DNA of 64,000 bases, taken from positions 1-64,000 of the forward strand of contig JAGCLA010000048.1 of the NCBI GenBank assembly GCA_017647225.1, written 5' to 3'. Position numbers and translations under genes: made by a program. Position 1 is the first letter of the stretch. Each line of letters starts with the position of its first letter. Origin of the DNA: Bacteroidaceae bacterium (lineage in GTDB: Bacteria; Bacteroidota; Bacteroidia; Bacteroidales; Bacteroidaceae). The notes beneath the pieces were generated by a model. It saw only the letters and a program-made list of their open reading frames with translations. It made no database searches and was not told the origin of the DNA. Shown in pieces: positions 6,186 through 61,257 of this stretch.

Positions 6186-6258
6186 GATTCGCTAGCTCAG
6201 CAGGTAGAGCACATCCCTTTTAAGGATGGGGTCCTGGGTTCGAGCCCCAGGCGAATCA
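6186..6258 (+). tRNA. tRNA-Lys (anticodon TTT)
   Basis: 73 nt. The acceptor GATTCGC (6186-6192) pairs with GCGAATC (6251-6257), with discriminator A. D-arm GCTAGCTCAGCAGGTAGAGC, anticodon stem CATCC/GGATG around loop CTTTTAA, and T-arm CTGGGTTCGAGCCCAG are all present. No CCA is encoded. A terminator follows directly, so it is a single-gene unit. Confidence 0.97.
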
Positions 6259-6260
6259 CT

Positions 6261-6300: not shown

Positions 6301-6575
6301 ATTATTACTTGTTTTTAAGTATATTACATAATACTAACACTCGTTTTGAAAAATATTCAAACTTGGTGTTTTTTACACGCTTATTTTGATATTTGAGGTA
6401 AACCTCGAATATACTTTCGCTTGTCGATAAAAATATTGAATCAAGCTTCATATTTTTCGCTTGTTTGTAACATATACTTGCAATATGTCCAACTCGGGTA
6501 GGGGTGGATGAATATAGGTAAATTTTAAAAACTATTTTGCAATGTCTGGTTACCCACAATGATTACACATGTAGC
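6301..6575. other. AT-rich gap without a supported gene
   Basis: A minus-strand frame of 84 codons (6305-6559) is open here, but its product is basic with no recognisable fold or motif and lacks a promoter-like upstream sequence. I see no other structure, apart from being the likely leader of the small acidic protein gene. Confidence 0.35.
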
Positions 6576-6761
6576 ATGTATGACTTCTATATGCTTACCG
6601 GTGAAGGAGCTGAATATTTTGAAGATATTACCGAAGAAGATTACTGTCAAGAAGAATGCCAGGAAGAACTATATTTTGAAACCTTTAACGATTGGCTGGA
6701 TTATAATATCGAACGTCTGGAAGCGGAAATAGCAGAGAAGAAACGCATCATTGCGGAATAA
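6576..6761 (+). CDS. Small acidic protein, unknown function
   Basis: 61 residues from the ATG at 6576 (MYDFYMLTGEGAEYFEDITE...); a TTG at 6537 could add 13 but gives an unlikely Cys-containing leader. The protein is very acidic (EDITEEDYCQEECQEEL), then has an aromatic patch and a C-terminal amphipathic helix rich in Glu/Lys (NIERLEAEIAEKKRIIAE). It has two Cys four residues apart, no signal peptide and no membrane segment. A tight terminator hairpin directly after the stop argues that it is expressed. Family not recognised. Confidence 0.6.
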   Translation: MYDFYMLTGEGAEYFEDITEEDYCQEECQEELYFETFNDWLDYNIERLEAEIAEKKRIIAE

Positions 6762-6764
6762 AAT

Positions 6765-6795
6765 GCCGAGTCAAAATAATTTGACTCGGCTTCAT
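6765..6795 (+). terminator. Terminator of the small acidic protein gene
   Basis: Perfect 11-bp stem GCCGAGTCAAA / TTTGACTCGGC, four bases after the stop codon, though followed by only a weak T-run. Confidence 0.75.
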
Positions 6796-6887
6796 TGTGC
6801 TTAATAATAGCGATTCGCGATATGTTGGAATGGCGATATCTAAATCGGACATTTTCCACCTTGTCATTCCATCTTCTGGTGAATTAA

Positions 6888-6923
6888 ACAATCAAGGAGA
6901 AGCATTTGCTTCTCCTTGATTGT
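6888..6923 (-). terminator. Terminator of the WGNLW peptide / secreted protein operon
   Basis: A perfect 16-bp inverted repeat (ACAATCAAGGAGAAGC / GCTTCTCCTTGATTGT) abuts the stop codon of the small peptide. There is no long T-run, so it may act as an RNA-stabilising end. Confidence 0.75.
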
Positions 6924-7085
6924 TTAATTCTTCCAGAGGTTGCCCCACTCACCACGGTTGTTTCTTTGGCTCCAAGCCTGGTCTGGGGTTAGTTCTTCAT
7001 CTCCTTTACCAATAGATGATGCAAGCATCTCGTTTGCTTCAACATTTACCTCAAATGCATGAGGTGCTATATATCTCTTTTTCAT
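6924..7085 (-). CDS. Small WGNLW-tailed peptide (MKKxYxxP family), copy 1
   Basis: 53 residues from the ATG at 7083-7085 (MKKRYIAPHAFEV...); the longer open frame adds an unlikely leader. The N-terminus MKK-R-YIAP and the central EMLASS resemble a group of very short Bacteroidales proteins that begin MKKxYxxP and have an M/I-L-A-x-S stretch near residue 20. The tail is EWGNLWKN. A second gene at 26537-26701 shares both ends (MKKIYVSP...AWGNLWQ) but little of the middle. It lies 51 bp after the stop of a large tail-bearing secreted protein and probably shares its transcript. Function unknown; a secreted or processed peptide is only a guess. Confidence 0.75.
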   Translation of the reverse strand: MKKRYIAPHAFEVNVEANEMLASSIGKGDEELTPDQAWSQRNNRGEWGNLWKN

Positions 7086-7136
7086 ATATTGTTTTTTCGC
7101 GTTATATATCAATAACAATTTGGCTTCTTATAATGA

Positions 7137-9503
7137 TTACTTTACTGTAACCTTTTTCCCGTTAATGATGTAGATACCGGGCTTTGCTATCTCACTTATC
7201 CTACGGCCTGTGAGGTCATATATTGCTGTATCTTCGTTCTCCTCTTCGATATTCTCTATGGATGTTGTTCCGAATAGGCGAAGGTTTACAGAATTCTGTA
7301 TAGCATCGATGGCAATATATGCCTTGTTCATTGCAAGGTGTTGTTTGCTTGCATCGTTTGCATCAGCAACAGCTCTGTAAAAACCAGCCTGGCCATTCTT
7401 CGATGACAGAATATAGCCGGTGGTGAATTCCAAATCGGCACCTGCCGAGTGTGACAAAAGGTTGTTGCTTATAGTTTCAGGTGTTTCGCCTGCAGCAGGA
7501 ACCATTGTCACGTTTCCAGCCTCTTCGCCAACAAGAATAACACCTGTATTTGCCGGTATTGTTCTCGATTCGAATGGCTTGATGCTAACGTAATCGCCCT
7601 TGTCTTCTGTTGCATAGTATGCTGTTACGCCATCAGGTAAAACTGTTGGGAATGGTGCACTGAATGTTGCCATAACTTTGTTGTGCAAGTCTGAAGTCAA
7701 CAGCGGGCTTGTACCTACAGCGTTGAGCTTTGGTGTGTTGGCGTATTCGGCATCTTCGATGACTATTGACGAAGAGAAACTTCCATTGTTGTTGTGGTTC
7801 TGTTTGTAGAATGGGGCGTTAGCCTGGTCAAAAATAGGATTTCCGTTGTTCCATTTAATGACGTAGTAATTTAATGCGTTGGGTCCAGAACCGCTTTCGC
7901 GTCGTCCTTGCATGAGCATATATCTCGTAAGAGTCATGTCTGTACCTTCATCATAATTGTTGCCTGTAGTCATTTTGGTAATTATCAGATCGCTCCATTT
8001 ATCTTCTGAAGTGTCGTAATTATCCCTTACGCCTCCATTTCCGGTGCCTCTCCAGCGAAGATATTTGCCGGCGTTGTTTACAAAAGCATAATTTCCGTTT
8101 TCTAATTCACGGCATATGAATACTGTGGCTTCTTCCTCTACTGTTGTAAGGACTATATTTGTGCCATCGTATTTGAACCAGCAAGTCGAGTGGTTTGCAT
8201 CAGCCTGTACATTCTTGAATGTATAGGCTTTTCCACTTACAGGCATGTTTACTTCAAGTGTCTCTGTAAGATCCTCTATTTCTGTAATCTTTTCTTCAAT
8301 TTCTTCGATTGTGGCATTTTCGCTTTCATTACTATAGAAGAGCATAATATCCCACAAATCGTATGAGAAATCCTCATTTGTTGAAGAGAGTTGTCCTACT
8401 GCGGGTCCTATTATATGTAATGTTTGATCCCAGGCAATGATCTGTTCGATTTTACGTTGCAGTTCATTTCTAGCCTCTTCTTTCAAATCTTTGTAATATA
8501 CATAGAATTCTGTTATCAGTACTCCTTTATTCTGATCGGTAATTGTAAATTCTGTGGCATCTGTGTCGAGATCTGATACAGCAATTTCCTTTGTCGTTGT
8601 GTCAACAGTATTGTTTGTTCCGTTGATGCTAACTGTTGCACTATAGTCTAACGACGGTTGTCTTTTTGTGTACTTAAAGGTATAGCCGGTTATCTTGTAA
8701 CCTTCAGAAATGCTAATTTTGTATATTGTCGTATTGCCGCTTCCGTCTCCACCCCTGAAATCAAAATCGGTGTCGCTGACTTTTTGAATGTTGTTCTTGT
8801 AATTATTTTTTGCAATAATTGTTATTAGTGGAGTGTTTGCAGCTTTTGCAGCTTTTGTCTGCCACTTGCTACACCAGCTGGTGTTGTTTATAGTGCCGGC
8901 ATTAGTTGCATTTGCATCTCTGTAGAGGTCACCAGTGATAAGGCTTATCTGCTGCTGTTTCAAAGGAAAGACTTTCAGGGCCTCTGTGGGGTTGAACTCT
9001 CCGGCTACTGTAATAACAAGTTTATTGCCGTCGTCGGTTTCGTCAAAGTTTGCGTTTACGCCTGCGACAGCATTTTGAGGCATGGCCAGGTTCAGCTTGT
9101 TTATGCCGTTCATCTTAATGACAAAGTAATTGTCAAGTTTCTCTATTGTAACATAGCTATCTGGCATGTTAGAAAACTGTATGTAGCCGTTGCTTGCTCT
9201 TACTGCGAATTTTTTCTCGCTTACACTATATAAGTAGTAGGTTTTATTGTGTTGTATCAATGCAAACTGCTGTGTTGGATTGTTGGGGTCTTTTGCGACA
9301 TCCCGATTAGGATAATTACCGTATGTACCACCACTGGTTGACAACCATTCAGCATTTGCTGCTGCATAGAAAACGCCACGAGCACCGTCTATTGAGCTGA
9401 TTTGATAACATTTGTCGTTACTCAATTCGCTGACATCTGCTATCTGTGCCATTGCACTCATTGTCAGGAGCAACGATACAATTATTAAAGTAAATTTTCT
9501 CAT
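7137..9503 (-). CDS. Large secreted lectin-like protein with C-terminal sorting tail
   Basis: 788 residues from the ATG at 9501-9503, where a clean signal peptide starts (MRKFTLIIVSLLLTMSAMAQ); the longer frame is leader. Rough layout: 20-190 beta-rich module with RICIN-like Trp/Tyr pattern; 190-338 a beta-sandwich-like module (LYRDA...SW..W... ending KGVLITEFYVYYK) that also occurs twice in the giant sialidase; 340-420 helical Glu-rich linker; 430-590 second RICIN-like part (YAFVNNAGKYLRWRG); about 700-760 a beta region; last 30 residues are the IYDLTGRRI...GIYIINGKKV tail. No catalytic motif is seen. Probably exported and attached to the cell surface to bind glycans. Transcribed from a promoter with a (TA)9 spacer. 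Confidence 0.8.
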   Translation of the reverse strand: MRKFTLIIVSLLLTMSAMAQIADVSELSNDKCYQISSIDGARGVFYAAANAEWLSTSGGTYGNYPNRDVAKDPNNPTQQFALIQHNKTYYLYSVSEKKFAVRASNGYIQFSNMPDSYVTIEKLDNYFVIKMNGINKLNLAMPQNAVAGVNANFDETDDGNKLVITVAGEFNPTEALKVFPLKQQQISLITGDLYRDANATNAGTINNTSWCSKWQTKAAKAANTPLITIIAKNNYKNNIQKVSDTDFDFRGGDGSGNTTIYKISISEGYKITGYTFKYTKRQPSLDYSATVSINGTNNTVDTTTKEIAVSDLDTDATEFTITDQNKGVLITEFYVYYKDLKEEARNELQRKIEQIIAWDQTLHIIGPAVGQLSSTNEDFSYDLWDIMLFYSNESENATIEEIEEKITEIEDLTETLEVNMPVSGKAYTFKNVQADANHSTCWFKYDGTNIVLTTVEEEATVFICRELENGNYAFVNNAGKYLRWRGTGNGGVRDNYDTSEDKWSDLIITKMTTGNNYDEGTDMTLTRYMLMQGRRESGSGPNALNYYVIKWNNGNPIFDQANAPFYKQNHNNNGSFSSSIVIEDAEYANTPKLNAVGTSPLLTSDLHNKVMATFSAPFPTVLPDGVTAYYATEDKGDYVSIKPFESRTIPANTGVILVGEEAGNVTMVPAAGETPETISNNLLSHSAGADLEFTTGYILSSKNGQAGFYRAVADANDASKQHLAMNKAYIAIDAIQNSVNLRLFGTTSIENIEEENEDTAIYDLTGRRISEIAKPGIYIINGKKVTVK

Positions 9504-9596: not shown

Positions 9597-9625
9597 CAAA
9601 ATTATATATATATATATATAACAAA
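9597..9625 (-). promoter_or_regulatory. Promoter with (TA)9 spacer for the secreted protein
   Basis: On the minus strand: TTTG (9622-9625), 17 nt made almost entirely of TA repeats (9603-9620), then TAATTTTG (9597-9604), a perfect TAnnTTTG. The 17-nt spacing is slightly short of the usual 19-20, so gain of one TA unit would move it to 19. Confidence 0.65.
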
Positions 9626-13952: not shown

Positions 13953-16307
13953 TTATTTTCTCAAGTAAATTTTGCTGTTCTTATAACCGTTCTCTGTCTT
14001 TGCACACACAATATATACTCCTTCGCAGAGTTCGGCAGTGTCAATTGTGTTTCCTGTATTTCTTGCTACAATAGCGGCATCAATGGTGTATAATGTCATG
14101 CTTGTAATGTCGCAATTGCCAATAGCTGTTATTTTGTTGTTCTGTAATGTGAATACAATATCTTCATCAGCAACAACGCTCTTTACGCCTGTTGTTCCTG
14201 TTGTGTTTGGAGTAAAATATGCTACCAATTTTACGTTGTGGTCAACAGTGAATGTATATTCAGCATTGGTTGAAACAACAACACCTTCTTCGCGCCAGCA
14301 AACGAATTGTGCATTACCGGTCGGAACAGCCTTGGCTGTGAGTGTTGTGCCGTATGCGTAATTTTCGGCAACCTCTGACAGAGTGGCACTACCTCTGTCG
14401 TCTGCATTGACTGCGACGGTAGCTGTACGGTTCTCTTCTGCTTTAACTACCTTTATATGGAAATCATAGATAAAACCATAGACGTCGTCTTCGGCAAGGT
14501 CAAGGCCGTTGCTGTTTATACGCAGACGCATGCGTGTCTGTGTCTCTTCGGCCCACTCGGGAACAGTCGCTTCGGCATTGCCTTTTGTTCCGTTCAATGT
14601 AAGCGGTACGGCTGTTTCAAAAACACCGTCGCTGTTCCAGTCGAAATGAGCAATGGCTGTCAAAGCGTTTGTTGCGTTTTCTGAAAGGGTTACATCGATG
14701 TTGAATTTCTCGCCTTTTATAACTTCGCCCTTATCCATGGCATACATTATATGCCAATTGCCCGGTTTTGAATTGCTTTCGTAAATGATATTGTCAACAG
14801 CACCTTCGCCACGGATTTCGGCTCTCTTTGCGTAAATGTTGCCTGTTGCGCCGCATGGGTTGTTGTAAATCTTCAATGTGCGTGAGTATGCACTGCGTAC
14901 GCGGGTAAAACGGAACAGACTGTCGCTATCAACCTTAAGCGTTGTGTTGTTGCTTGTAAAGTAATAGTATCCGTTGATTTCGCCTTTTTTTACCTTCCAT
15001 TTTGTTTCGAGGTTTTCACCTGCTATGATGTTGCCGTCATTTATTCCAATTACAGTTGCCGGCTCGCTTGCCGATGCTATCTGAAAACCTTTTCCATCGT
15101 TTGTGCCTACAAAATACCACTCCTGGTTCTCGTCAAAGCTGTCGGGGGTTGCCATAGACGGCTTGTTGTCGGCAAAAGTAAGGTTTTTACCGCTTGGTGT
15201 CTGTACATTGTAGCTTGCACCAATGTTGCCGATAGCATTACTTATTGCAAATGGGCGCAATTCATATAAATCTTCAGTTTCAACGAGTGTCCAATATGAA
15301 CCGACCTTATCGGTTCCTGCATTCCAGGTAATTACATAATTTGATGCACCATCTTTGTTCAATGCACGCGGATTACTGCTCTCGTTACTGTAATTATCGC
15401 AGTCGGTAGAACTGAAATACCAACAATTGGCATTTTCGCCACTTGTGGCAGCTGTCTTTGCCATGTAGTATTCTACAGGCTGAATGCTTGTCTGAACTTT
15501 AGAATCAGATGACGGTGTCAGGTTGCAACTGCCCAAATAGTTCCCTGTAGCTGTGTTCTTTATATAGAAACAATTCTCATTTTCTGTAGGGATAAACATC
15601 CAGAACTGTTGTTTTGTAACATCCTTTCCTTGAACAGTCATTCTGCCATCAGGCTCCTCTGTGATATAGTTAGCTCCGGTATTCTTCCAGGATATAAGAT
15701 ATACCTTACCTTCGCCCTCTACAGGCTCTGAGGCCGGTTTTACTTCGTAGGCATAATGTATTGTCCAACCGCCTGTTCCTGTATTATACAATGGAGTGCC
15801 GGAATCACCGTTCTGTACATTAACCCAAGTGTTGTCGTCTTTGACAAAACGTACAAGGTTTGAGTCATCGCTTCCGTTGATGTATGACTGAGAGTCACCA
15901 TCGCCATTGAAATTACTTGCTCCGCTGCCTTTTGATGTAGGGTTTGTTGTTGTGAATACAGCGGCATTGTCTATAGTTCCAAAATCCTTTGGCGAACTTT
16001 TCTGCATGTATGTACCATTTAACTTCTTGAGATGATATGCTCCGGCAACACCTTTTTGAACAGGTGTCCAAACAAATACTGCCTCGTTTGCGAAGGCTTG
16101 TTTGCTGTAAGGTGTAGCACCTGTATTTCCATAAAACCAATAGTTGTTGGTGCGTGACAGGTTCTTTAATGCAATAAGAGTCTCTGTTGTCATTGCATTG
16201 AGTTCTGCCGACGTGTATTTCTTTGTCGTAGGTGCATAAGTTACTTCCTGAGCAACTGCTATACTCATAAAGAGCATGCATGTAATGGAGAGTATAAGTC
16301 TTTTCAT
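13953..16307 (-). CDS. Secreted multi-module lectin-like protein with sorting tail
   Basis: 784 residues. Signal peptide MKRLILSITCMLFMSIAVAQ. About 30-500 are several RICIN/beta-trefoil-like modules (repeated patterns such as YLGSCNLTPSS, ENCFYIKNTATGNYLG). About 535-617 matches the GEVED-type domain (AHFDWNSDGVFE...RMRLRINS). About 629-699 looks like an InlB B-type repeat (GTTLTAKAVP...FVCWREEG...YTFTVDHNVKLVAYF). The last 55 residues are a type IX-like tail (GVYIVCAKTENGYKNSKIYLRK). No catalytic motif found. It probably holds the downstream sulfatase's glycan substrate at the surface. Confidence 0.8.
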   Translation of the reverse strand: MKRLILSITCMLFMSIAVAQEVTYAPTTKKYTSAELNAMTTETLIALKNLSRTNNYWFYGNTGATPYSKQAFANEAVFVWTPVQKGVAGAYHLKKLNGTYMQKSSPKDFGTIDNAAVFTTTNPTSKGSGASNFNGDGDSQSYINGSDDSNLVRFVKDDNTWVNVQNGDSGTPLYNTGTGGWTIHYAYEVKPASEPVEGEGKVYLISWKNTGANYITEEPDGRMTVQGKDVTKQQFWMFIPTENENCFYIKNTATGNYLGSCNLTPSSDSKVQTSIQPVEYYMAKTAATSGENANCWYFSSTDCDNYSNESSNPRALNKDGASNYVITWNAGTDKVGSYWTLVETEDLYELRPFAISNAIGNIGASYNVQTPSGKNLTFADNKPSMATPDSFDENQEWYFVGTNDGKGFQIASASEPATVIGINDGNIIAGENLETKWKVKKGEINGYYYFTSNNTTLKVDSDSLFRFTRVRSAYSRTLKIYNNPCGATGNIYAKRAEIRGEGAVDNIIYESNSKPGNWHIMYAMDKGEVIKGEKFNIDVTLSENATNALTAIAHFDWNSDGVFETAVPLTLNGTKGNAEATVPEWAEETQTRMRLRINSNGLDLAEDDVYGFIYDFHIKVVKAEENRTATVAVNADDRGSATLSEVAENYAYGTTLTAKAVPTGNAQFVCWREEGVVVSTNAEYTFTVDHNVKLVAYFTPNTTGTTGVKSVVADEDIVFTLQNNKITAIGNCDITSMTLYTIDAAIVARNTGNTIDTAELCEGVYIVCAKTENGYKNSKIYLRK

Positions 16308-19891: not shown

Positions 19892-22800
19892 TTATTTAAT
19901 CAATATCTTCTTGCCACCTTTGATATATACACCTTTCTTGGGTGCGATGACTTTACGGCCCTGCAAGTCGTAAATATCATTGTTGACGGTGCTTTCTGTA
20001 ATATCCTTTATTTCTGTAGGGATAGTGGTGTATGTATATGTCAGTTCTATATTCTTGGCAACATTAGCAACCTCATCATAAACGGCATCACTCTTTGAGA
20101 AGGTATAGCCATCGAATACAGGTGTGAGCATGCTGTAAGCATCGCCACCCTTTACATAGCGTGAGCCACTTGCCAATTCATTGCCATTCTCATCGACGCA
20201 CTTGTACGAAACGATGAAATATGGGTGAGGCTTATATCTGTAAATGATGAATGGGTGACCGTCATCCCAACCGGTGAAGGTATTATTGGCATTACCGTTC
20301 CAGTAGTAGTTGTTGCTTGTGCCCTTGACACTCCATGTATTGTCGTTGCTGTTGAGTGTAAAGGTAAATTGTTCTGCCGTTTCGCTTCCTGTCACAAGCG
20401 AACCTTTCGACAGTGCCGGAATAGCTATTCCGTAGTTATTCCTTACGGTAAATTTATTGCCGTCGCCCTCGAAGTTCCATACGAATGAGGGGTTAGACTC
20501 GCTTATGCCGTTTGTCGTAGTGATGCCGGCTCCCACTGCGTTTGCGCTGAGGAACCCGCTACGTGCAGTCTCATTATGAGCATTGTATATTACATACGAA
20601 GCTCCAGCCTCAAGCTCTGTTACAGGCTCGCCTACTGATGCAACACCTGTTAGTCCTTCTGTTTCGTAGTAAGCTTCGATGACAGTATCTTCAGTTGGTG
20701 TTATTGTCTTTTGCTCTTCTTCAGTACCAACCAATTTGTAGAACTCCACTTCAGGACATGCTATGGTATGGCTTTCGCCAATGATGCATGGAGTGGTGTA
20801 GTCGGCAATATGATTGCCGTCCATACTGTAGCAACGGTATGTGACACTGTTCGATACTCGCTTGTATGTTATATTTACGGTTTTGTTTTCGTTTATTTTT
20901 TCAAAGACAGGAGCTTCGGCGCTGTTTGTTTCGTCATACTTTACAATCTCGTAATTTTCAATTTGTGGCGCAATGGCGGTAACGTCGCTTTCAAAGGCTA
21001 CCGACTGAGCAACCTTTTCAATGGTGTTGCCGTTTTCGTCTTTACATACATAATTGATTATGCACGCTTTTTCAAATACCCAACCGGTACCCTGTGGGTA
21101 TATACCGCCTGTGCTCAATGTGTTAGGATTGTTTGTAGCACGTTCCGGAAGCGGATAGATAGCCGCATCTGCAATATTGATGCTGAAATCTCCGCTCTTG
21201 GTGTTATATACGTTGATGAGGGTAATGCCTTCCTCACCCAATGCAAGCGGTGCGGTTGTGCTGCTTATGTAACGTCCTGTTGTTACATTCTGCAACTTGT
21301 ATGTCTGGCCGTTATCGGTTATTGTTGATTCTGCTATCGTCCATACATCGGCACCGTATGTCTGCATTGTTGCAGTCACTTTGCCGTCGTTGTTGTCATA
21401 CAATGTCCAGCCATTGAAACGTTCTGTGTTGTTTACAATGCGATAGGTTGTGCCTTCGGCAGGGTAGTCAATGACAATATCTTCACCTTGTGCAACCAAA
21501 GGACGGAACTCCCATATACCGCCGTTGCCGTCGGCAGGGTCGCTCCATAGGTTGATGGAGTGATTCTGTCCCGGACCTGCGTAGTTGAGGCACATGTTTG
21601 CATTTGAAACCTTCTGGCTACGTATGCTGTAGTTGTAGTTATTGCCGTTCTGTGCATATACCTTGTCGCCTAAAATGAAGTCATAGTGGCGGTTGTTGTC
21701 GTCATAATCCCAGCGTCCTGTATTGTTTTCTGCTGTAGGGGTACCCTTTACAGAACCATTCGGTTTTGCCTTGTTTACCATTGCCCAACGTTCGGGATTG
21801 TTTGGGTCCTGCATGAACGCCCATAGCTGATAGTCGTAGCCATCATTGTTCTCGTCTTCGATTATCTCGCTGTTCCAAAGACGGTTAGCCGGAGCTGTAC
21901 CAGTCTTGTCAGCAACGTTTAATCCCTCGCGCAACAACTGTATGCATCGTCCTGCACGTGTATCGGTGGCATTTGTAACAATGCGATACCATGTCTTGTT
22001 CTCGTCGGTCGATGGGGTAGGCATTACCTTGGTGTCGTCGTTGTTGTCTTTGAGGATATAATGACGGCCATACTCATATTTATTGTAGTTGAGCAAGAGT
22101 GTGTCCTGTGTTATACGTTGCTGGAAATCTTTGAAATTCTTCTTTGCTTCAGGTGTCCAGCCTGTTTCTGCTAAGGCAATCAAACGTGGAAGAGCAAGGT
22201 ATTCGAGCAGGTAGTTGCTCTGTACGTGTTCTGTCCAGAATGTTCCCTGCACACCAATGTAGTATTTATGTAAATCGGCAGATACACTTGCCGGAATGGG
22301 CTTGTAATTATATACAACCTCTACATTATCGGTTCCGCCGCCTGCTACAGGTGGCTCGTTGGCATCGGTGCTTTGACGACGGTTAATGTAATAGGGCACC
22401 TGTGTGGTAATAATCGATTCCATGCCATTTTGCGCTGCTTTCAATGCGCATGGCTGTGCATTGCCAATCTCCCAGCACATCATTGTACCGCCTGTACCTA
22501 TGATAAGATCCTCATCAGTGCCACCAGCGGTAAGGCTCTCGTTCCACATTATAACGGTACGTTTCTTGTCACCCTCTTTCGATGTCACGTGGTCCGAAAT
22601 CTGACGTACAAAATATGACTGCAACTGACGTATATTGCTGAAGCCCATCTTTTCCATAAGTGCCTTGCATTCATCATTGTTCTGCCAAGCATTTGTTGGT
22701 GTTTCGTCACCACCTATATGTATCTGGTTATATGGGAAAACCTCTATGACCTCATCAAGAACATCCTTTGCAAATTGCAGAACCAAAGGACTCGCAACAT

Positions 22801-23716
22801 TGAGGACATCGCTGTAAATACCGCCGTTCACCTGTACGCTGTGTCCGCCGTTGGGGTTGCAACTCAACTCGGGATATGCGGCATTTACAGCGCATGAGTG
22901 GCCGGGGAACTCAATCTCGGGTACAACCTCTATATGACGTTCCGCTGCGTATGCGACAATGTCGCGACACTCGTCCTGTGTGTAAAAATATGGTCCGTAA
23001 GGTTCGTTGTCGTAATATCCGCCATATACAGGGTCGGTACTCCAAGAATTGTTACGTGTAGCACCTACAGTTGTGAGGCGTGGGTATTTCTTTACCTCAA
23101 AACGCCAGCCCTGGTCGTCGGTCAAGTGCCAATGGAAGCGGTTCATCTTGTAGTACGACATTACATCAATCATGCGCTTGATCTGGTCAGTAGTGAAGTA
23201 ATGACGGCTTACATCGAGCATAAAACCACGATATTCAAAGCGTGGAGCATCAACAATGCTTACAATCGGCAATGAATATTCTGTAATGCTCTCATCTTTT
23301 ACCTCTGCCATTACATTGGCCGGGAGCATTTTCTTAATACTCTGGAATGCATAGTAGAAACCGTTAGCATTGTTGGCTGCGATAGTGATGCCGCTTGTGG
23401 TGATGTCGAGTGTGTAACCCTCATTGCCAAGCTGCTCACCACCATTGTATTGCTGCATTTTGATGAGAGCATTGTCGTCGTTTGCAACAGTTACCGTATA
23501 ACCGCTGACCTCGCTGAACAAGGCAGAGAATCTCTCGGCTTCAGTTTTCGCATCTTTTATGCCATTGGTTGCTATCGCAAAATTCTCAGGCAAGGTGAGT
23601 TTGCCATTGCCAACGGTCATTTTCATTGGAACCGGTGTAAGGTTTATGCCATTTTCAGCCATTAGGGCTATAGGCAAACCAATAATCATAATCAGTAATA
23701 ATGTGATTTTTCTCAT
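19892..23716 (-). CDS. Large secreted GH20 beta-N-acetylhexosaminidase
   Basis: 1274 residues, signal peptide MRKITLLLIMIIGLPIALMA. Residues about 22-160 are the GH20b-type domain; about 165-530 is the catalytic barrel with HWHLTDDQGWR and the acid/base pair in HIGGDETP (about 335-342). Then beta-rich, RICIN-like modules (about 560-860). Three MucBP-like repeats follow: YVCKDENGNTI (about 890), YRCYSMDGNHI (about 960), YKCVDENGNEL (about 1170). The IYDLQGRKV...GVYIKGGKKILIK tail ends it. Removes terminal GlcNAc/GalNAc; the appended repeats suggest mucin binding. Twelve bp after the TRIC gene. Confidence 0.93.
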   Translation of the reverse strand: MRKITLLLIMIIGLPIALMAENGINLTPVPMKMTVGNGKLTLPENFAIATNGIKDAKTEAERFSALFSEVSGYTVTVANDDNALIKMQQYNGGEQLGNEGYTLDITTSGITIAANNANGFYYAFQSIKKMLPANVMAEVKDESITEYSLPIVSIVDAPRFEYRGFMLDVSRHYFTTDQIKRMIDVMSYYKMNRFHWHLTDDQGWRFEVKKYPRLTTVGATRNNSWSTDPVYGGYYDNEPYGPYFYTQDECRDIVAYAAERHIEVVPEIEFPGHSCAVNAAYPELSCNPNGGHSVQVNGGIYSDVLNVASPLVLQFAKDVLDEVIEVFPYNQIHIGGDETPTNAWQNNDECKALMEKMGFSNIRQLQSYFVRQISDHVTSKEGDKKRTVIMWNESLTAGGTDEDLIIGTGGTMMCWEIGNAQPCALKAAQNGMESIITTQVPYYINRRQSTDANEPPVAGGGTDNVEVVYNYKPIPASVSADLHKYYIGVQGTFWTEHVQSNYLLEYLALPRLIALAETGWTPEAKKNFKDFQQRITQDTLLLNYNKYEYGRHYILKDNNDDTKVMPTPSTDENKTWYRIVTNATDTRAGRCIQLLREGLNVADKTGTAPANRLWNSEIIEDENNDGYDYQLWAFMQDPNNPERWAMVNKAKPNGSVKGTPTAENNTGRWDYDDNNRHYDFILGDKVYAQNGNNYNYSIRSQKVSNANMCLNYAGPGQNHSINLWSDPADGNGGIWEFRPLVAQGEDIVIDYPAEGTTYRIVNNTERFNGWTLYDNNDGKVTATMQTYGADVWTIAESTITDNGQTYKLQNVTTGRYISSTTAPLALGEEGITLINVYNTKSGDFSINIADAAIYPLPERATNNPNTLSTGGIYPQGTGWVFEKACIINYVCKDENGNTIEKVAQSVAFESDVTAIAPQIENYEIVKYDETNSAEAPVFEKINENKTVNITYKRVSNSVTYRCYSMDGNHIADYTTPCIIGESHTIACPEVEFYKLVGTEEEQKTITPTEDTVIEAYYETEGLTGVASVGEPVTELEAGASYVIYNAHNETARSGFLSANAVGAGITTTNGISESNPSFVWNFEGDGNKFTVRNNYGIAIPALSKGSLVTGSETAEQFTFTLNSNDNTWSVKGTSNNYYWNGNANNTFTGWDDGHPFIIYRYKPHPYFIVSYKCVDENGNELASGSRYVKGGDAYSMLTPVFDGYTFSKSDAVYDEVANVAKNIELTYTYTTIPTEIKDITESTVNNDIYDLQGRKVIAPKKGVYIKGGKKILIK

Positions 23717-26507: not shown

Positions 26508-26508
26508 C

Positions 26509-26538
26509 AATAAAGGACGACCTTGGTCGTCCTTATTT
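26509..26538. terminator. Bidirectional terminator shared by nadA and the peptide gene
   Basis: AAGGACGACC and GGTCGTCCTT form a perfect 10-bp stem (26513-26534) with A/T flanks. The flank covers the stop codon of the minus-strand peptide. Confidence 0.85.
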
Positions 26539-26701
26539 ATTGCCATAAGTTTCCCCATGCGCGTGTCGGGGTTTTTGTATTCTTTTCTTCGGAAAAGGAT
26601 CGCACTCCCGGGCTGTTCTGTGGCGTACTCCCTGCGAGTATCGATGTCTTTAGCTCGTAACGGCTCAATTCGCATTTTGGCGAAACATAAATTTTCTTCA
26701 T
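26537..26701 (-). CDS. Small WGNLW-tailed peptide (MKKxYxxP family), copy 2
   Basis: 54 residues, start ATG 26699-26701, stop TAA 26537-26539. The product begins MKKIYVSPKCELSRYELK, has SILAGS near 20-25, and ends AWGNLWQ. It therefore repeats the MKKxYxxP start, the (M/I)LAxS core and the WGNLW end of the gene at 6924-7085, while the middle differs in sequence and charge. It has one Cys (residue 10). It stands alone between two terminators, so it must have its own promoter. No function known. Confidence 0.7.
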   Translation of the reverse strand: MKKIYVSPKCELSRYELKTSILAGSTPQNSPGVRSFSEEKNTKTPTRAWGNLWQ

Positions 26702-26790
26702 TTCAAATCGTTTTTATTAAACAAATGCCTGCTGTTGTTATCAGAAGGATTGTTTAATAAACATATGAAAAGAGAAAATGTTTGTAGATA

Positions 26791-26827
26791 CATAAAAAAG
26801 AACCTCTAATGAGGCTCTTTTTTTATG
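26791..26827 (-). terminator. Terminator of the TDH-type gene
   Basis: CATAAAAAAGAACCTC and GAGGCTCTTTTTTTATG form a stem with one mismatch around TAAT, just past the stop of the dehydrogenase gene. Confidence 0.8.
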
Positions 26828-26840
26828 TAGTTGTTATTGC

Positions 26841-33019: not shown

Positions 33020-36000
33020 TTACTTGACAAGCACCTTCTTGCCGTTGATGATGTAAAGTCCCTTTGTCGGGTTCTCTACTTTACGGCCTTGCAGGTCGTA
33101 AATAGTTTTCACCTCTCCGTTTTCCGTTTTTACCTCTTCAATCGCAGTCGGGTTTGTCGATTTGATGGGGTAGAATGGTGCCTCTTTGGTGAACTTGTAT
33201 GCTCCGTTACTTGCCCAATCGAGTGAGAAACGTACAAAACGCATAGTGAAGCCACCGAATACACCGTTCTCCTCGTAGTAGACACCAAGTGTTCCATCAG
33301 GCAGTACAACTGCTGCACTATATGCAGAACCAATAGGACAAATTGTCTTTGGTGTACCGAATGTCGCACCTTCGTCGGTTGACAATGCGATACTTACATT
33401 CTGACGGCTACCGCTGTTAGGTAATGTCTGGAATGCGATATTCCATGGGTTACCCTCAACAGTTGAACACCATACCATGTATTCACCGTCGCACGCGTTG
33501 CCCGAAATTCCGGTTGTGAAACGTGTCTGTGATGGCATGTGCCATGTTTCACCGTCATTTGATGTATAGTTGTAGTAGTTGTAGCCGCTTGAACGTACGC
33601 TGATGGCGAGGTCGCCGTTGTTACGTTCCAATGTCTTTGGCTCGTCGGCTCCGCTTGTTCCGCTTGTTCCGCTTACATACCAGCTCTTGCCACCGTCCTT
33701 ACTCATGAAGAAATAGAAGTGTTGGCTGTCGTCGGCCTGGCGGTTCACGAAACTTGAAACAAGTGTACCGTCACGTTTCTGAAGCGCTGCACCAGAACCA
33801 GAGAAACCACTCTTCCATGTCTGGGTGTATGGGTTAGAACAATTTGCACCAAAGAGGTCGTTGGTGTGGTCAACAGGTGTCTCCCATGTCAAACCGCCAT
33901 CGCGGCTGGTGATTGTCTTCCAACGTGGAGGTTCTGCGGCTGTTCCGGCAAAGAAACCGTGTCCGTATGTGCCGGCACTTGTCATGATACCTACAATCTC
34001 GCCGTTGTCGCGGTTGGTTACGATTGACGCGTCGCCATGGCCGTAGTCGCCACCTGTCTCTGCTGTTCCTGCCACAGTAATAGGGTCACTCCATGTCTTA
34101 CCATTATCTTCGGAATATTGTGCTACAAGGTAACAATGTGAAGGAAGGTCGCTGTTGTGGCCTTTGCGGTCGTCGGTTAGTGTGACAAGGCGTTTGCCGT
34201 CCTTGGTTACTGTAATTGAAGGTATGCGGTAGTATAGTGAACCCTTGTCCATAGGCATGAGTACTGCACCCTCTGAAAGGAATATTGTCACGCTGTGTGC
34301 AGGGTTGCCGTTCTCCTCGGCAATCTCCTCACCGTCGATGGTGTATGCGGTGATGCTTGCATCTACAGTGTTGCCTTCTTTTGCAGTTTCTGCAATGTCG
34401 TATGTAATCCACAAATAGTTGTCACCAGGAAGCAATGTTTTTTTGCCGGTGATTGTAAATGTGCCGTCAGCTGCAAGTGTAACGGTCTCGCCGAACTGCT
34501 CGCCGTTCTCCTCGCGCCATGTCATCTTCTTGTCAGGGTCAACAAATAGTTCGCGTGAGTTGGTTGCAAAGTAAGCCTTTACGTTTGTGATGTCGTTCTT
34601 GTCTGTTCCAGCGAACGCACCCTTTACGCCTTGGAATTCTACATTGCCATCGAGTCCTCCAATACGTAAAGTAGAGCGTACTATTGGCTGGTCTGTATTG
34701 CCGATACCGGTACTTACCTTGCCCTGAACAACTCTTGATGATGCAAACTCTGCCATGGCATTGCTTGTGTCAACTTCTTCGAACTTCCACAATGATGCTC
34801 CGTTAGCTTCTGCACCCCAACGCACGATGACCTTATTATCATCTTGTGCGTGCAATTCAGTGCCGGAATCCTTGATGATAAAGAAATCATGTGCACTTTG
34901 TATGTTGTATATGTAATTGGCTGTGCTGACAGTTCCGAATGCAGTTCCGTTTCCAGTTCCGGCAGCTGGTGTTCCAAAGTATTCACCATTGTAGTTCTTG
35001 ATGGCAAGTTTGCCGTCTTTCTCCCAGAAACTCCAGATACGGTCTCCGCTGAATGTCTTGTCGCCAAAGCGGAGTTTTTCCATATCGTTGTCGTTGTAGA
35101 TAACCTTACCGGCACAGTATGCCTTTGATGACGCATTGACAATATAGTACCAATGTACATTGTCTTCAGTACTGATAGATGGTGCTTCAACCTTGTCCTC
35201 TTTGACCTTTACGGTAAAGTTTGTGAGTACAACACCCTTACCGTTTTCTCCGGCAAGAGTAAATGAAACGGAACTTGCCTTAATGTCGCTTGCACTGATA
35301 GTCTGTGGCGTTGCAGATGTTGTGTACTCCTTGCCGTTGTCCATAGTGAGTGCGAGGCCTGTACTATGTCCGTTGTTGGCAAATGTAAAACTGTAGTCTG
35401 CAATAACGTAACCTGCGGGTGCTGTGATGGCATATGTTGCACTGCCGGCTGTTCCTGTCATCATTTGCACGTTGTTGTTAGCCCAGTTCATGTTGTTGAT
35501 AGTTCCGCAACCGAACTGCAATTCCGGGGTGGCATTGCTCTTCCAAACATTGTTCCATGATTGGTTTGCCGCTGTGCCTTTGTAAAGGTTTCCGTTTGTC
35601 TTGTCAATGGTATATGTTGTGCCATTTTCATTATTCGCTCTGTATCTGATTACCAGTTTGGTGATCAGAATACCTTTCTCGCCATCAAGAGTATTACCTA
35701 CAGTCAGGGTTATTTTATTTGTCTTTAGGTTATTTACTGTTACTGTTTTCTCTGCATCAGTTTGCTCTTCACTTGTAGCTGTTCCTGTAGCAGTGTTGTA
35801 TGTGAATGTACCGGTAAATTCCCATACTCTCTTTGTGGTTAATTCATATCCCAGAATTTCGTAATTTTCGGGCAAGGTAAGGTTGTATGTGTAACCAGTT
35901 TTAAGCCATGGCTGATTGTTTGACCAACCGATATTGTTGGCTGCTGCATCGGTGCTTTCTGCTGTGAGAGCAGGAACTGTACCTGTAACGAATTTACCAT

Positions 36001-38125
36001 ACCATCCACCACTTGTTGTGTTGCCGTGGTATGTCCATGTCGAAGGGTCTTTTTTGAATTGTGCCGGTGTCAATGTCAGAGTTCCCTGTGAAAGGTCTAC
36101 AATCTCACCTGCTTCGAAAATCAACAATTGACAACCTGCGTCGTTGCGGTCGTTTCCCTTATTGGCATTATTGCTCCAGTTGAAAACAGCATTGTTCTGG
36201 TCTGTCTGGTTCAACTGTACTTCGCCTGATGAAACAATATAGTAGCCGGGGGTGTTTGAATAACTGATAGTCCAGCCGTTGCTTGGGCGGGTTGTGGTGG
36301 TGTTAATCTGTGCGTTGTAATTGGCTACAGGACTCAAATATGATTCGTATTCGCGGTTTACGATGTCGAATGTATTGTCGCCACGGTCAACAAACTTCCA
36401 CATTGAGGTTGCTAAACCTGCAGTGTTGCTCTCGCCCTTAACACCGTTAGCTGCGCCTTTGGCTGTAATATAAAGATTGCTGCTGCGCAACGATGTCATC
36501 TGATACCAGTACTCGTTTTCTGCGGTGCTTGCCTTTGGCATGGAAAGAGCCTGTGCCATGACAGTTGTGAGTTTTGCACTCATTTCGTTAACCTCTGCTT
36601 CAGTGATGCTTTCTTTTGCAAGCAGAGTGTATGCACTCTCTACCTCGGTGTCGAATGCCTTCATCTTTTCCGCGTCGTAGCATCCCAACTTATCGCCACG
36701 TTCTGCGGTGAGGCCACGTGCAATTACCTGTGTCAAGGTGTTGCGCAGCGTAGCCTGTGCATAGCGTGCCTCAGCATCAGCTTCGCTTATGACATTATAT
36801 GTGTCTTCGGGAAAATCCTTTTTCAAGGCATCCTTCATGGCATTTGCCATTACAACATATCCCAAACCGCCAAGGTAGTTGCTCGGGTAGAAATACTTTG
36901 TGTTTGCAACATCGCCGTTGAGCAGTGGTGTGTATGTGTCAACATAGCGTATGTTGTCTGTCGCAAGGCTCTGCATGTAGCTGTTCAACTCAGCTATGCG
37001 TGATGTATTTGTTGTGGCATTGTTTGTTGGGCAAAGTGCCATCAGATAAATCTTTGAATCAGGAGATTTCTGTGCTACTTTTTCTACAAGAGCCTTATAG
37101 TTTGCCTTAATAGTCTCTATTGCTGTGTTTCCGTTGCAGTCGCCTGTACCGGTGTAGATGAAGATTGCCTTTGCATTTGTTTTCTCAACACCATCGATGC
37201 TTGCATATGTGGCATCGACGATTTTGCTTGTTGTTGCGATGTCACCGCCATATCCCCAACCTGTACCGCGGTTCTTTACGTTGCGGTTGCCGAGAAGTTC
37301 TTGCCACTCGCCGTTCTTGATGAACTCGTCACCGAATACAAGAACATCATCGTTGCTTATAGGCATCATGCTGAAATATGTCGCGCGCATACCGTGTGCG
37401 CTGCCCAAACCGCCATTCTGCTGCAATAATGATGTGTTGCTTGGGTAAACAGTCTTTACTGTGTATTCCTCGTCTTCGGCAAGGTATTGGCATATTGTCT
37501 CGCACCATACTTGGTAGGCAGCTGCTGTGAGGTGTAGATTGTCGTAGCTCCACACGCCACCTTGTGCAATGCCTGTAAGTTTGTCATAAAGGTCAATGTA
37601 TGTAACCTTCTCGGTTGCATCAGCATAAGCCTTTACAATCTCGTTTGTCTTGAGCCATGTAGCCTCGACACGGTTTGATGTGTTGTTCTTGAGAATGCTG
37701 TAAAGGTAAACCTTTGTCTGTGGTGAGCGTGCATGGATGCGTGCAACAATGCTCTTTACATAGCTGAGCACCTGCTCGGGGCTGAAGTTGAGACCGCCTG
37801 ATGTAGCAATATCGTTGGTACCAATCATCATGAACACCTTTTTAGGCTTGCCTTTCAAATACGATTCGAGGTTATTGCTCTGTTCGGTCGAATATGTACC
37901 CGAGTTTCCGCGGTTGACAATAGGCAGGTAATCTCCGTTTGAGGTTACAAAAGCCTCCGGCCAGCAGTGCATATCTGTAATACTGTTACCAATGAATACA
38001 ATACTCTCGTTGTTCGTCTCAAGTACTTTGAACGAGTCGTATCTGTGATTGCGGAACGGTTCGTCTGCAAATATCGTTGCAGTCGAAAGCAATGCACATA
38101 CGAATAAGGTTAAAAGTTTTTTCAT
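33020..38125 (-). CDS. Giant secreted esterase-sialidase fusion (SGNH, dead SGNH, modules, GH33)
   Basis: 1701 residues. Signal peptide about 1-20. About 40-215: SGNH esterase with Ser48 in FIGNSIT, MMIGTND and DNLHL, all catalytic residues kept. About 255-430: a second SGNH fold with Ser replaced (FGDEF), GTGDC for GTND, and no DxxH. About 440-530 helical linker; 535-670 RICIN-like; 678-828 and 835-973 two copies of a beta module ending GILIT/GVVLTxFxV; about 1160-1290 sialidase N-terminal domain. GH33 barrel from about 1295: YRIP, and Asp boxes SEDNGKTW, SRDGGLTW, SKDGGKSW, SNDGETW, STDEGATF. Ends in IYDLQGRKV...GLYIINGKKVLVK. Releases sialic acid from mucins. Confidence 0.93.
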   Translation of the reverse strand: MKKLLTLFVCALLSTATIFADEPFRNHRYDSFKVLETNNESIVFIGNSITDMHCWPEAFVTSNGDYLPIVNRGNSGTYSTEQSNNLESYLKGKPKKVFMMIGTNDIATSGGLNFSPEQVLSYVKSIVARIHARSPQTKVYLYSILKNNTSNRVEATWLKTNEIVKAYADATEKVTYIDLYDKLTGIAQGGVWSYDNLHLTAAAYQVWCETICQYLAEDEEYTVKTVYPSNTSLLQQNGGLGSAHGMRATYFSMMPISNDDVLVFGDEFIKNGEWQELLGNRNVKNRGTGWGYGGDIATTSKIVDATYASIDGVEKTNAKAIFIYTGTGDCNGNTAIETIKANYKALVEKVAQKSPDSKIYLMALCPTNNATTNTSRIAELNSYMQSLATDNIRYVDTYTPLLNGDVANTKYFYPSNYLGGLGYVVMANAMKDALKKDFPEDTYNVISEADAEARYAQATLRNTLTQVIARGLTAERGDKLGCYDAEKMKAFDTEVESAYTLLAKESITEAEVNEMSAKLTTVMAQALSMPKASTAENEYWYQMTSLRSSNLYITAKGAANGVKGESNTAGLATSMWKFVDRGDNTFDIVNREYESYLSPVANYNAQINTTTTRPSNGWTISYSNTPGYYIVSSGEVQLNQTDQNNAVFNWSNNANKGNDRNDAGCQLLIFEAGEIVDLSQGTLTLTPAQFKKDPSTWTYHGNTTSGGWYGKFVTGTVPALTAESTDAAANNIGWSNNQPWLKTGYTYNLTLPENYEILGYELTTKRVWEFTGTFTYNTATGTATSEEQTDAEKTVTVNNLKTNKITLTVGNTLDGEKGILITKLVIRYRANNENGTTYTIDKTNGNLYKGTAANQSWNNVWKSNATPELQFGCGTINNMNWANNNVQMMTGTAGSATYAITAPAGYVIADYSFTFANNGHSTGLALTMDNGKEYTTSATPQTISASDIKASSVSFTLAGENGKGVVLTNFTVKVKEDKVEAPSISTEDNVHWYYIVNASSKAYCAGKVIYNDNDMEKLRFGDKTFSGDRIWSFWEKDGKLAIKNYNGEYFGTPAAGTGNGTAFGTVSTANYIYNIQSAHDFFIIKDSGTELHAQDDNKVIVRWGAEANGASLWKFEEVDTSNAMAEFASSRVVQGKVSTGIGNTDQPIVRSTLRIGGLDGNVEFQGVKGAFAGTDKNDITNVKAYFATNSRELFVDPDKKMTWREENGEQFGETVTLAADGTFTITGKKTLLPGDNYLWITYDIAETAKEGNTVDASITAYTIDGEEIAEENGNPAHSVTIFLSEGAVLMPMDKGSLYYRIPSITVTKDGKRLVTLTDDRKGHNSDLPSHCYLVAQYSEDNGKTWSDPITVAGTAETGGDYGHGDASIVTNRDNGEIVGIMTSAGTYGHGFFAGTAAEPPRWKTITSRDGGLTWETPVDHTNDLFGANCSNPYTQTWKSGFSGSGAALQKRDGTLVSSFVNRQADDSQHFYFFMSKDGGKSWYVSGTSGTSGADEPKTLERNNGDLAISVRSSGYNYYNYTSNDGETWHMPSQTRFTTGISGNACDGEYMVWCSTVEGNPWNIAFQTLPNSGSRQNVSIALSTDEGATFGTPKTICPIGSAYSAAVVLPDGTLGVYYEENGVFGGFTMRFVRFSLDWASNGAYKFTKEAPFYPIKSTNPTAIEEVKTENGEVKTIYDLQGRKVENPTKGLYIINGKKVLVK

Positions 38126-59167: not shown

Positions 59168-60802
59168 TTATTCAATCTCTTTTATTATCAGCCAACCTCC
59201 GGTTTGGGAGATTTCGTTGGCATAAATAGCTATATCCTCTTTGCTTATTGCATGCAATGTTCCATCAAATAATGAAATCTTTGTCGCTTCGACAGCATTG
59301 TCATATGCGCAAAGTTTTACATTGCCGTTTGTTATAATAAGGTTTTTAGTATCAATAGCCACACTGTTATAATTGTTGTCGTAATTTTGAGCTGTTGTCA
59401 ATATTGTTATATCTCCACCAGTAGCTTCAATATAGTCGCAATTTATACCTTTTGCTCCTTCTCCCGAACAATCCATGGCGATAGTTCCGCCGGAGATGGT
59501 TAATTCTCCTTCGCATTTTATACCTCCGGCAGTTGTTTCGTTGTTAAGTATAGTGCCTTCGGCAAAGCCTGTGAATTTGCCCTTGCCTATTGCGATATTG
59601 CCGTCACAATTCAGTAATTTTGAGCCGTTACCTATTACTGTTCCATGTATTATACCACCGTTTAACTTGAAATTTCCAGTGGTCTTTATTCCTGAACTCT
59701 TTTCGCCGGTTGTAGTGAACTTGATATAGCCGCCGTTTATTGTTGCGTTTGGTGTTACCTGCGGGTCCGGGTTAGCCTCTTCGTATTCCACCTTTATGGC
59801 TTCTCCACCTGTTGTCAGTTCCAAAATTCCGGCATCAATGACAACCTCTCCTTCGCTGCAATCGATACCGTCATTGTTGGATTTGACAGTGATTCGCGGG
59901 CTTGCAGCTTTGGTGCGGCTTACAATGAATTTATCCTTTGTGCGAAAGCCGTCTTTGGCAGCTGAAAGAATGTTTATGTTTCCGCTGCGTATTCTAATAT
60001 AGTCGTCACTGCATATTCCATGGCCGCCAAGGCTTGTGACGTTGAGAGTGCCGGCTCCGTCAAATATGAGCTGTCCTTCGCTGAAAAGTGTTCCTTTCTG
60101 GTCTTCCTCTTCACCGTCTGTACCCACTACAGGAGCGTTGTATGTCTCGCCGTCGCAAAGGACGTTTGTTGTGTTGTCATCAATTGTGAAATATACTGTT
60201 TTGCTTGTCTGGATATTTATCGCAGGGCCATTGGGGTTTGTCAGTTCAAGCCCGGTGAGTACAAGCTGGAACTTTTTCTCGCTATATATTTTCAAAGAAC
60301 CGTTGCTGCACTTTCCCGAAACTATATATACGACTTTGCTTGATGTTGATTCAATTGTCAAATGTGTCGTCTCCTTTTTTACACCATTGACAGAAACACC
60401 GTTTTCACTGAACACAATTTCCGTTTCTGTTCCAGCATCCCAATTCTCGACGTAGTCGCCGTAATTGTCGTCTGACTCATCTGTTGGAATCACTTCCGTT
60501 TTCTCGGTGAAGTTGCTTTGGTCGTTGTTGTCAAAAACAACTGTCGGAGCAAGGCTGTATGTGAGTCTTTTGCTCTTGTCGGTCTGTGGTGATATGCTCT
60601 CGACCTTATCTGTATAAAAACAATGTTGTGCTCCGTCGCTCGTAGTCAATATGACAATTTTGTCCGATTCGTTGAATGTAATCTCTTTGGTGTTTTCCGT
60701 GTTGAGCGGGAGATATGTACCGTTATTGTTGTTTACATTCAAAACCTGTGCCTGCAAACCTATTGTGGAAAGCAAAGCTGTAGCTAAAATAATCCTTTTC
60801 AT
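59168..60802 (-). CDS. Secreted carbohydrate-binding-like beta-helix protein (Cthe_2159 type)
   Basis: 544 residues with signal peptide MKRIILATALLSTIGLQA. From about 150 to 520 short repeats of the form GxLxxxxxGxxI...GIDCSEGEVVIDAGxLELTT predict a right-handed beta-helix, as in the Cthe_2159 family that binds polysaccharide and calcium. There is no sorting tail. Last of a five-gene operon; its start overlaps the stop of the previous gene by four bases. Confidence 0.8.
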   Translation of the reverse strand: MKRIILATALLSTIGLQAQVLNVNNNNGTYLPLNTENTKEITFNESDKIVILTTSDGAQHCFYTDKVESISPQTDKSKRLTYSLAPTVVFDNNDQSNFTEKTEVIPTDESDDNYGDYVENWDAGTETEIVFSENGVSVNGVKKETTHLTIESTSSKVVYIVSGKCSNGSLKIYSEKKFQLVLTGLELTNPNGPAINIQTSKTVYFTIDDNTTNVLCDGETYNAPVVGTDGEEEDQKGTLFSEGQLIFDGAGTLNVTSLGGHGICSDDYIRIRSGNINILSAAKDGFRTKDKFIVSRTKAASPRITVKSNNDGIDCSEGEVVIDAGILELTTGGEAIKVEYEEANPDPQVTPNATINGGYIKFTTTGEKSSGIKTTGNFKLNGGIIHGTVIGNGSKLLNCDGNIAIGKGKFTGFAEGTILNNETTAGGIKCEGELTISGGTIAMDCSGEGAKGINCDYIEATGGDITILTTAQNYDNNYNSVAIDTKNLIITNGNVKLCAYDNAVEATKISLFDGTLHAISKEDIAIYANEISQTGGWLIIKEIE

Positions 60803-61257
60803 CTTTTTACAAATTTAGCGGTACGGTCATTTGCTTTTATTATATAGATGCCTTTAGGCAACTGTGCGATGCTTATGGTTGCGTTATCGGCATTCTGTCG
60901 CACACATATTATTTGTGAGCCTATAACGTCGTAAATTCTTATAATCTCACCGGCATTGCAGTTTACGGCAATCTCATCACTCGAAATGTAGTTGAAGAGG
61001 GCGGTAGTGCTGTACTCCAAATTGTCGATATTGGTGTAGTTGCTGAATGTTATACGGTCTATTTCACCCATTGTGGCCTGTGAGGTTGTGCCATTTAGCT
61101 GCTTGATGTTTACGGTTGTACCGTTGAATGTTATCTTGTCGAGATTGCTGAATTCAATGGATTCTGTATTTCCACCCTTCTCAACAAGCATCTGTTGTGC
61201 CATTGACGGTGTCATGGCAATGAACAGAAACAGTAATAATGTGTATATTTTTTTCAT
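60799..61257 (-). CDS. Small secreted protein with sorting-tail domain
   Basis: 152 residues. Signal peptide MKKIYTLLLFLFIAMTPSMAQ; two short repeats (ESIEFSNLDKITFNGTTVN, GEIDRITFSNY); then a type IX-like tail (IRIYDVIGSQIICVR...LPKGIYIIKANDRTAKFVKR) that occupies most of the chain. In effect it is a sorting domain with little cargo. Fourth gene of the VTC operon; ATGA overlap with the beta-helix gene. Confidence 0.8.
   Translation of the reverse strand: MKKIYTLLLFLFIAMTPSMAQQMLVEKGGNTESIEFSNLDKITFNGTTVNIKQLNGTTSQATMGEIDRITFSNYTNIDNLEYSTTALFNYISSDEIAVNCNAGEIIRIYDVIGSQIICVRQNADNATISIAQLPKGIYIIKANDRTAKFVKR

Follow-up and report, generated by a model that had tools for sequence, protein, structure and literature searches.

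A multicopy family of ~55-residue proteins in gut Bacteroidales often encoded directly behind genes for large secreted proteins with T9SS-like tails

The window analyzed here, a stretch of 64,000 nucleotides of Bacteroidaceae DNA, carries two small frames with similar ends and raises the question of what such short proteins are and what they may do. The frame under study, P0001 (26537..26701, minus strand; translation MKKIYVSPKCELSRYELKTSILAGSTPQNSPGVRSFSEEKNTKTPTRAWGNLWQ), has 54 residues. The second, P0002 (6924..7085, minus strand; translation MKKRYIAPHAFEVNVEANEMLASSIGKGDEELTPDQAWSQRNNRGEWGNLWKN), has 53 residues and is located 51 nt behind a gene that encodes a T9SS-like tail. A sequence-only reading had described both as genes with conserved ends and an unrelated middle and had viewed P0001 as a stand-alone unit between two terminators. 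When the translations were checked, both frames were found as described, on the minus strand. By use of a protein pattern close to that of the earlier reading (M[KR][KR].Y..P.{8,45}WGN[LI]W), two matches were detected in the window compared to none in 100 simulated windows.

Membership and spread of the peptide family

Profile and pattern searches revealed six family copies in the 2.13-Mb genome, two in the window and one apiece on contigs C3, C4, C9 and C22. A DNA pattern detected four copies in the genome and 0 reversed-pattern matches. As a single query, P0002 matched three to four of the other copies (E 2e-5 to 0.004) and P0001 matched two (E 0.003 and 0.024); P0001 scored 85.7 bits against the family profile, which includes P0001 itself. 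Both proteins have the features of membership, i.e., a KxYxxP start, a Ser after a hydrophobic LA core and a C-terminal WGNLW. Lys2, Tyr5, Pro8 and the Ser after the LA core were invariant in a 44-row alignment, with an offset of 19 from Tyr5 to this Ser in 37 of the 44 members, and Y..P was present in 44/44, a motif contained in the profiles used to find them. By a crude hydropathy check, a signal-peptide-like stretch was lacking on average (best-12-residue mean of 1.1, highest 2.5, compared to 2.3 to 2.8 for five cargo starts). That P0001 and P0002 belong to a multicopy family of ~55-residue Bacteroidales proteins that lack an evident signal peptide is well supported, and P0001 is, as judged by its sequence, a divergent member.

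A profile made from the six own copies matched 37 of 44 genus genomes at E 0.01, with copy numbers that were patchy and ranged from 0 to 16 per genome. With a 25-sequence profile at E 0.001, matches were found in 227 of 399 genomes of the taxonomic family (21 of 30 genera) compared to 8 in an order-wide sample of 393 genomes; thus, at this threshold the peptide family occurs commonly within one taxonomic family but only sparsely elsewhere in the order. Copy numbers from the search of the 399 genomes are lower bounds, as up to 16 candidates were scored per genome. An exact RGEWGNLW scan of named genomes yielded 68 loci, of which 63 had a ruminant sample named in their titles; the 68 loci were mostly from Bacteroidaceae/Bacteroidales MAGs, with three from Rikenellaceae or Alistipes. 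The genus genomes (G001-G043) and named loci (L103-L170) overlap in part, and their counts are kept separate. The sequence-only reading had supposed such short proteins to be common in Bacteroidales; many further members were indeed found in related genomes, and the family is large.

No match to P0001 or P0002 was detected in Pfam, NCBIfam, PHROGs, PADLOC or PDB, nor did the 44-row alignment match PDB. This alignment matched only lasso_cyano in NCBIfam (2 of 44 members, best E 0.17) and six families in Pfam (one member each, best E 0.06), all of which were taken as chance. A plasmid search with one member gave no match, and no paper on the peptide family or its link to T9SS cargo was recognized by titles and opening lines in the open-access library searched. 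The family is absent from the libraries searched, and its members are so short that annotation likely skips them. Copies at L144, L148 and L155 were noted by eye to be behind AraC-type regulator genes, and several copies in AraC-type loci have ITGxAPDSDDSEFGAP in common.

Gene order and the compact C-terminal tail

The main result lies outside the coordinates of P0001: most family members examined are located directly downstream of, and on the same strand as, a gene with a compact C-terminal tail. Such a gene (IYDLtGRRv...PGIYIVNGKKvlvK) was directly upstream in 40 of 54 named copies (the 69 named copies minus 15 with no upstream gene in reach), a count that is partly circular, as these loci supplied 24 of the 28 tails from which the model was built. 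By comparison, the tail was found in 4 of 221 other genes of the same loci (Fisher 1.5e-31) and in 4 of 47 genes downstream of the peptide (Fisher 7e-12). Of the 14 misses, four qualify by eye, namely L160 (a frame-split gene), L161 and, twice, L169 (variant tails). Other taxa weigh more, as their loci gave nothing to the tail model: in other genera 6 of 7 copies had a tail gene upstream, and in a different Bacteroidales family 15 of 19 did, with three of the four misses there being variant tails by eye. In a more distant taxonomic family, a tail gene was upstream in 0 of 5 copies; the peptide in this family and in one other genome is instead immediately upstream of lipoprotein-like genes. We hold the identity of these proteins as family members and their linkage to tail genes with high confidence.

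Distant KxYxxP peptides at L251, L252 and L253 (G098) and at L254 (G301) were directly upstream of lipoprotein-like genes, and those of G098 had a similar leader-like first part and very different ends, which gives them the look of a leader and variable core.

At the P0002 locus, the gene directly upstream (7137..9503, minus strand) encodes a 788-residue protein with a signal-peptide-like start (MRKFTLIIVSLLLTMSAMAQ), its longest frame beginning at 9599, and a compact T9SS type-A-like C-terminal tail (IYDLTGRRISEIAKPGIYIINGKKVTVK; 7140..7235, minus strand) that was detected in the genome at E 5.9e-19 by a tail profile in which this tail is included. Between P0002 and the preceding gene no hairpin was found (7086-7140, fold z -0.1). 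The end of P0002 overlaps a 23-bp hairpin (6880..6930, minus strand; fold z -12.1), which was absent from the output of the terminator scan. Between a tRNA-Lys gene (6186-6259) and the P0002 unit lies a very acidic frame of 74 residues (6537-6761), followed by a hairpin at 6765-6790.

The tail resembles motifs B, D and E of T9SS type A signals, as these are described in an excerpt of PMC10202324, with IYDLxGR similar to B, GIYIV to D and KKvlvK to E. Profiles of the tail and of the type A signals of the same genome were found to align over motifs B and D (P 3.5e-5, probability 72%). Compared to the type A signal (TIGR04183 / PF18962), the cargo tail keeps B-, D- and E-like motifs, in a genome that also encodes SprA, but is ~11 residues shorter by deletion between B and D. 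Motifs B and D (by profile), motif E (by eye) and C-terminal lysines were present in the upstream cargos. TIGR04183 did not match the four tail genes upstream of the own copies, even at E 10, nor ten named tail genes, and was dropped as a definition of the tail since it misses the genes concerned. This model had nine matches over cut-off in the own genome and one over cut-off in 1 of 14 control genomes. Within the window, it matched a classic type A tail at 60799-61257 (31.7 bits, over the cut-off of 23) and scored 21.5 bits, below this cut-off, at 13953-16307.

Inspection by eye showed a signal-peptide-like start in 32 of 39 cargos; among the remaining 7, five extend beyond the available sequence and two (L152, L153) show no such start. 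Among ten cargos scanned, six had a Pfam domain over cut-off, of lectin, galactose-binding or hexosaminidase-C-terminal type, and a related tail is present in a solved arabinanase (4kca). In the description given in PMC10202324, what marks a protein as T9SS cargo is a C-terminal signal of its own, which is both required and enough for export; for one such signal, secretion needs no more than motifs D and E, which make up its final 22 residues. Since D and E suffice in that signal, the compact tail could, by analogy, work as well. The cargos are type-A-like by their tail, and their export by T9SS is putative.

Neither the tail nor T9SS requires the small gene. The tail profile matched 40 places in the own genome, 36 of these at E below 1e-4; when 30 of the tail loci were examined, 28 that passed the pattern were read, and only 4 of the 28 carry the small gene (for two of the 28, less than 200 nt of sequence is available past the tail). 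Likewise, SprA, the T9SS component searched, was present in 44/44 genus genomes, including 7 with no peptide match, and T9SS thus does not need the peptide. Conversely, 4 of the 6 own copies are behind tail genes, the exceptions being P0001 and L003. Two more large compact-tail genes in the window (19892-23716 and 33020-38125) have no small peptide gene behind them. Where cargo and peptide genes are adjacent, their spacing is tight in many loci, down to 2 nt, and a terminator-like site was found between them in 1 of 39, by a scan that is insensitive in that it detected a site behind the small gene in only 4 of 35. The cargo bodies differ; the tail and the gene behind it are conserved.

P0001 itself is found in the gap between nadA and a NAD-dependent epimerase gene, with no tail gene upstream. 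Its end is marked by a terminator-like hairpin (26508..26540, minus strand; RNA fold -14.7 kcal/mol, z -5.5), and immediately upstream is an imperfect hairpin (TTTATTAAACAA...TTGTTTAATAAA; 26702..26770, minus strand; fold z -3.3, with 3 of 200 shuffles as good). A third hairpin with a U-rich 3' arm (26788..26830, minus strand; fold z -7.9) is behind the epimerase gene, between it and P0001. The proposed stand-alone unit between two terminators broadly fits P0001, which has hairpins on both sides, but the terminator scan listed that at 26508-26540 and not that at 26788-26830. Neither does the stand-alone state extend to the family, in which most examined members, including the comparison gene P0002, follow a gene with a T9SS-like tail.

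The nadA-epimerase gap was compared in 20 of the 43 other genus genomes. A peptide gene was next to nadA in this gap in 4 of the 20 (L231, L232, L234 and L235; by pattern) and near the gap, with another gene intervening, in L233; none was seen in the remaining genomes of the 20. Six of the gaps were re-examined. The L232 copy is nearest to P0001, with 36% of non-synonymous compared to 92% of synonymous sites differing, and the heavily diverged copies of L231, L234 and L235 are putative orthologs by their position. P0001 looks like an old, fast-evolving gene that is present at this site in a minority of genomes. An origin of P0001 by loss of a cargo gene was unsupported: L231 has a ~7-kb insert at the same site, with no tail gene among its large frames. 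Across the genus the gap is variable (26508-26840 of the window and L231-L250), being short in many genomes, with a peptide gene in some and other insertions elsewhere.

Selection on the protein and similarity among copies

Substitution rates support the frames as coding and under selection on the protein. Among 49 sequences of profile-selected loci, for which Y..P and a Trp near the end were still required, pN/pS was 0.30 in the N-terminus, 0.48 in the middle and 0.18 in the C-terminus, with 0.39 for all outside the C-terminus. The corresponding regional rates were 0.37, 0.50 and 0.10 in loci picked mainly by exact RGEWGNLW, a choice by which the C-terminal rate of 0.10 overstates constraint. 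The median dN/dS of the named set was 0.30 over 396 non-independent pairs and, after removal of the nine C-terminal residues, 0.40 over 478 pairs with 4.8% above 1. These rates agree with the conserved ends and freer middle of the sequence-only reading, as does the near-fixed spacing of Tyr5 and Ser; a part for these ends in processing, export or receptor binding, as that reading suggested, is putative. The middle is the least constrained region, but to call it unrelated is too strong, as VDTSxGGQL is common to close members.

Copies of the small gene are more alike within than between genomes (mean DNA identity of 84% for 29 pairs compared to 69% for 712 pairs), and 30 of 44 copies have their nearest relative within the same genome. 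In one genome, four pairs have small genes 95-98% alike and cargo ends 69-76% identical. The extent of homology varies. In several pairs it forms a sharp block of ~185 bp that holds the small gene, with flanks that are unlike; it takes in the small gene and ~20 bp in front of it, and a second block is found where the cargo gene ends. In other pairs it is continuous through the gap into the cargo gene. As judged from these comparisons the copies look interchangeable, which speaks for their acting in trans on a component common to all rather than as chaperones for individual cargos.

Candidate roles of the small protein

The explanation that we favor as a whole, at somewhat less than even confidence, is a two-part small protein co-encoded with a surface protein, since the YxxP...S block is leader-like and constraint is strongest at the tryptophan end. 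The N-terminal block (KxYxxP to Ser, at near-fixed spacing) would dock in the cytoplasm on one shared recognition protein, and the C-terminal tryptophan block (RGxWGNLW) would be the working part, joined to it by a linker of free length. The peptide would be made together with the surface protein that it serves, its interchangeable copies would act in trans on a shared pathway, and stand-alone P0001 would feed this same pathway as its own transcription unit. The docking step, drawn by analogy to YxxP leaders of lasso/LPP peptides that dock on their RRE, is more tentative still than the explanation as a whole.

The leaders of lasso/LPP precursors bind RRE proteins and have a [Y/W]xxP motif, as stated in excerpts of PMC13381572 and PMC6784204. 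Similar to these precursors, the peptide family has a conserved N-terminal YxxP block, a Ser at near-fixed distance and then a variable region; this Ser is mostly at Y+19 in the family compared to Y+18 in the LPP consensus printed in an excerpt of PMC13381572. Unlike these precursors, the family is also conserved at its C-terminus and has copies scattered over the genome, and a conserved penultimate leader Thr before the core, as in lasso peptides, had no corresponding column by eye in alignments A2 and A7. A further difference is that no recurring RRE, peptidase, cyclase or exporter was found beside the family genes: for 122 neighbor proteins, among the 25 most frequent of 133 Pfam families, none had more than 5 members and Radical_SAM had 2. 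Also counted against the favored explanation are that YxxP alone is a short motif and that P0001, L003, 14 of 54 named copies and 5 of 5 distant-family copies have no tail gene upstream. A broader version, in which up to 16 dispersed loci per genome form one precursor-peptide system and most loci encode a T9SS-type surface protein together with an interchangeable leader-core peptide, is unlikely; here the YxxP block would be recognized in trans and the tryptophan end modified or exported together with the surface protein.

Since no recurring maturation gene was found in the neighborhoods, which alone were searched, an unprocessed cytoplasmic partner is nearly as likely as the two-part protein, though in itself doubtful. 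Acting as a holdase or as a targeting factor, such a small protein would bind to the cargo, or to the tail domain of the cargo, ahead of export by Sec and passage through T9SS. The tight gene order and the retention of tail and following gene behind varied cargo bodies are consistent with this role. In the own genome, moreover, tail genes whose penultimate domain is of AYL type are followed by the peptide in 4 of 8 cases, compared to 0 of 20 tail genes that lack such a domain (p 0.003), by a grouping made post hoc and by eye. PorP/SprF, the partners in type B T9SS, are large outer-membrane proteins, unlike the partner here of ~55 residues with no evident signal peptide. The likeness is one of gene order, as type B substrates are described in an excerpt of PMC10202324 to cluster with PorP/SprF, i.e., a surface-protein gene with a dedicated partner gene. 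Arguing against a partner are the homogenization of copies within a genome while cargo ends differ, the existence of stand-alone copies, the lack of a small gene behind most tail genes read, and the position upstream of lipoprotein-like genes in distant relatives.

A regulatory or signaling peptide, either released or sensed as a report on surface-protein production or serving to tune the operon mRNA as a translated 3' element, is improbable. Stand-alone copies with their own unit such as P0001 would suit this role, as would the copies at L144, L147, L148, L149 and L155 that by eye are near AraC-type or histidine-kinase-like genes or upstream of fimbrillin-like genes. The commonest site is, however, behind a secreted-protein gene, where a leader peptide could not act on the start of that gene; selection at the protein level argues against a pure RNA role, and there is no receptor candidate. 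Least probable is a hitchhiking gene, a short unit that does little by itself and was spread through duplication or gene conversion, in part with the 3' ends of tail genes, for although the sharp ~185-bp blocks (homology being continuous into the cargo in other pairs), concerted evolution and patchy presence of 0 to 16 copies would fit, the pN/pS of 0.18 at the C-terminus and 0.39 elsewhere and the persistence of the family in several taxonomic families speak against it.

The peptide family is real, has no name, and occurs in gut Bacteroidales, often directly behind a large secreted-protein gene. If a subset of T9SS cargos in these bacteria is encoded together with a conserved small protein, this would point to an unrecognized partner, processing or peptide pathway. 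The gene order provides a direct guide to experiment, and the link to tail genes makes the function of the peptide testable.
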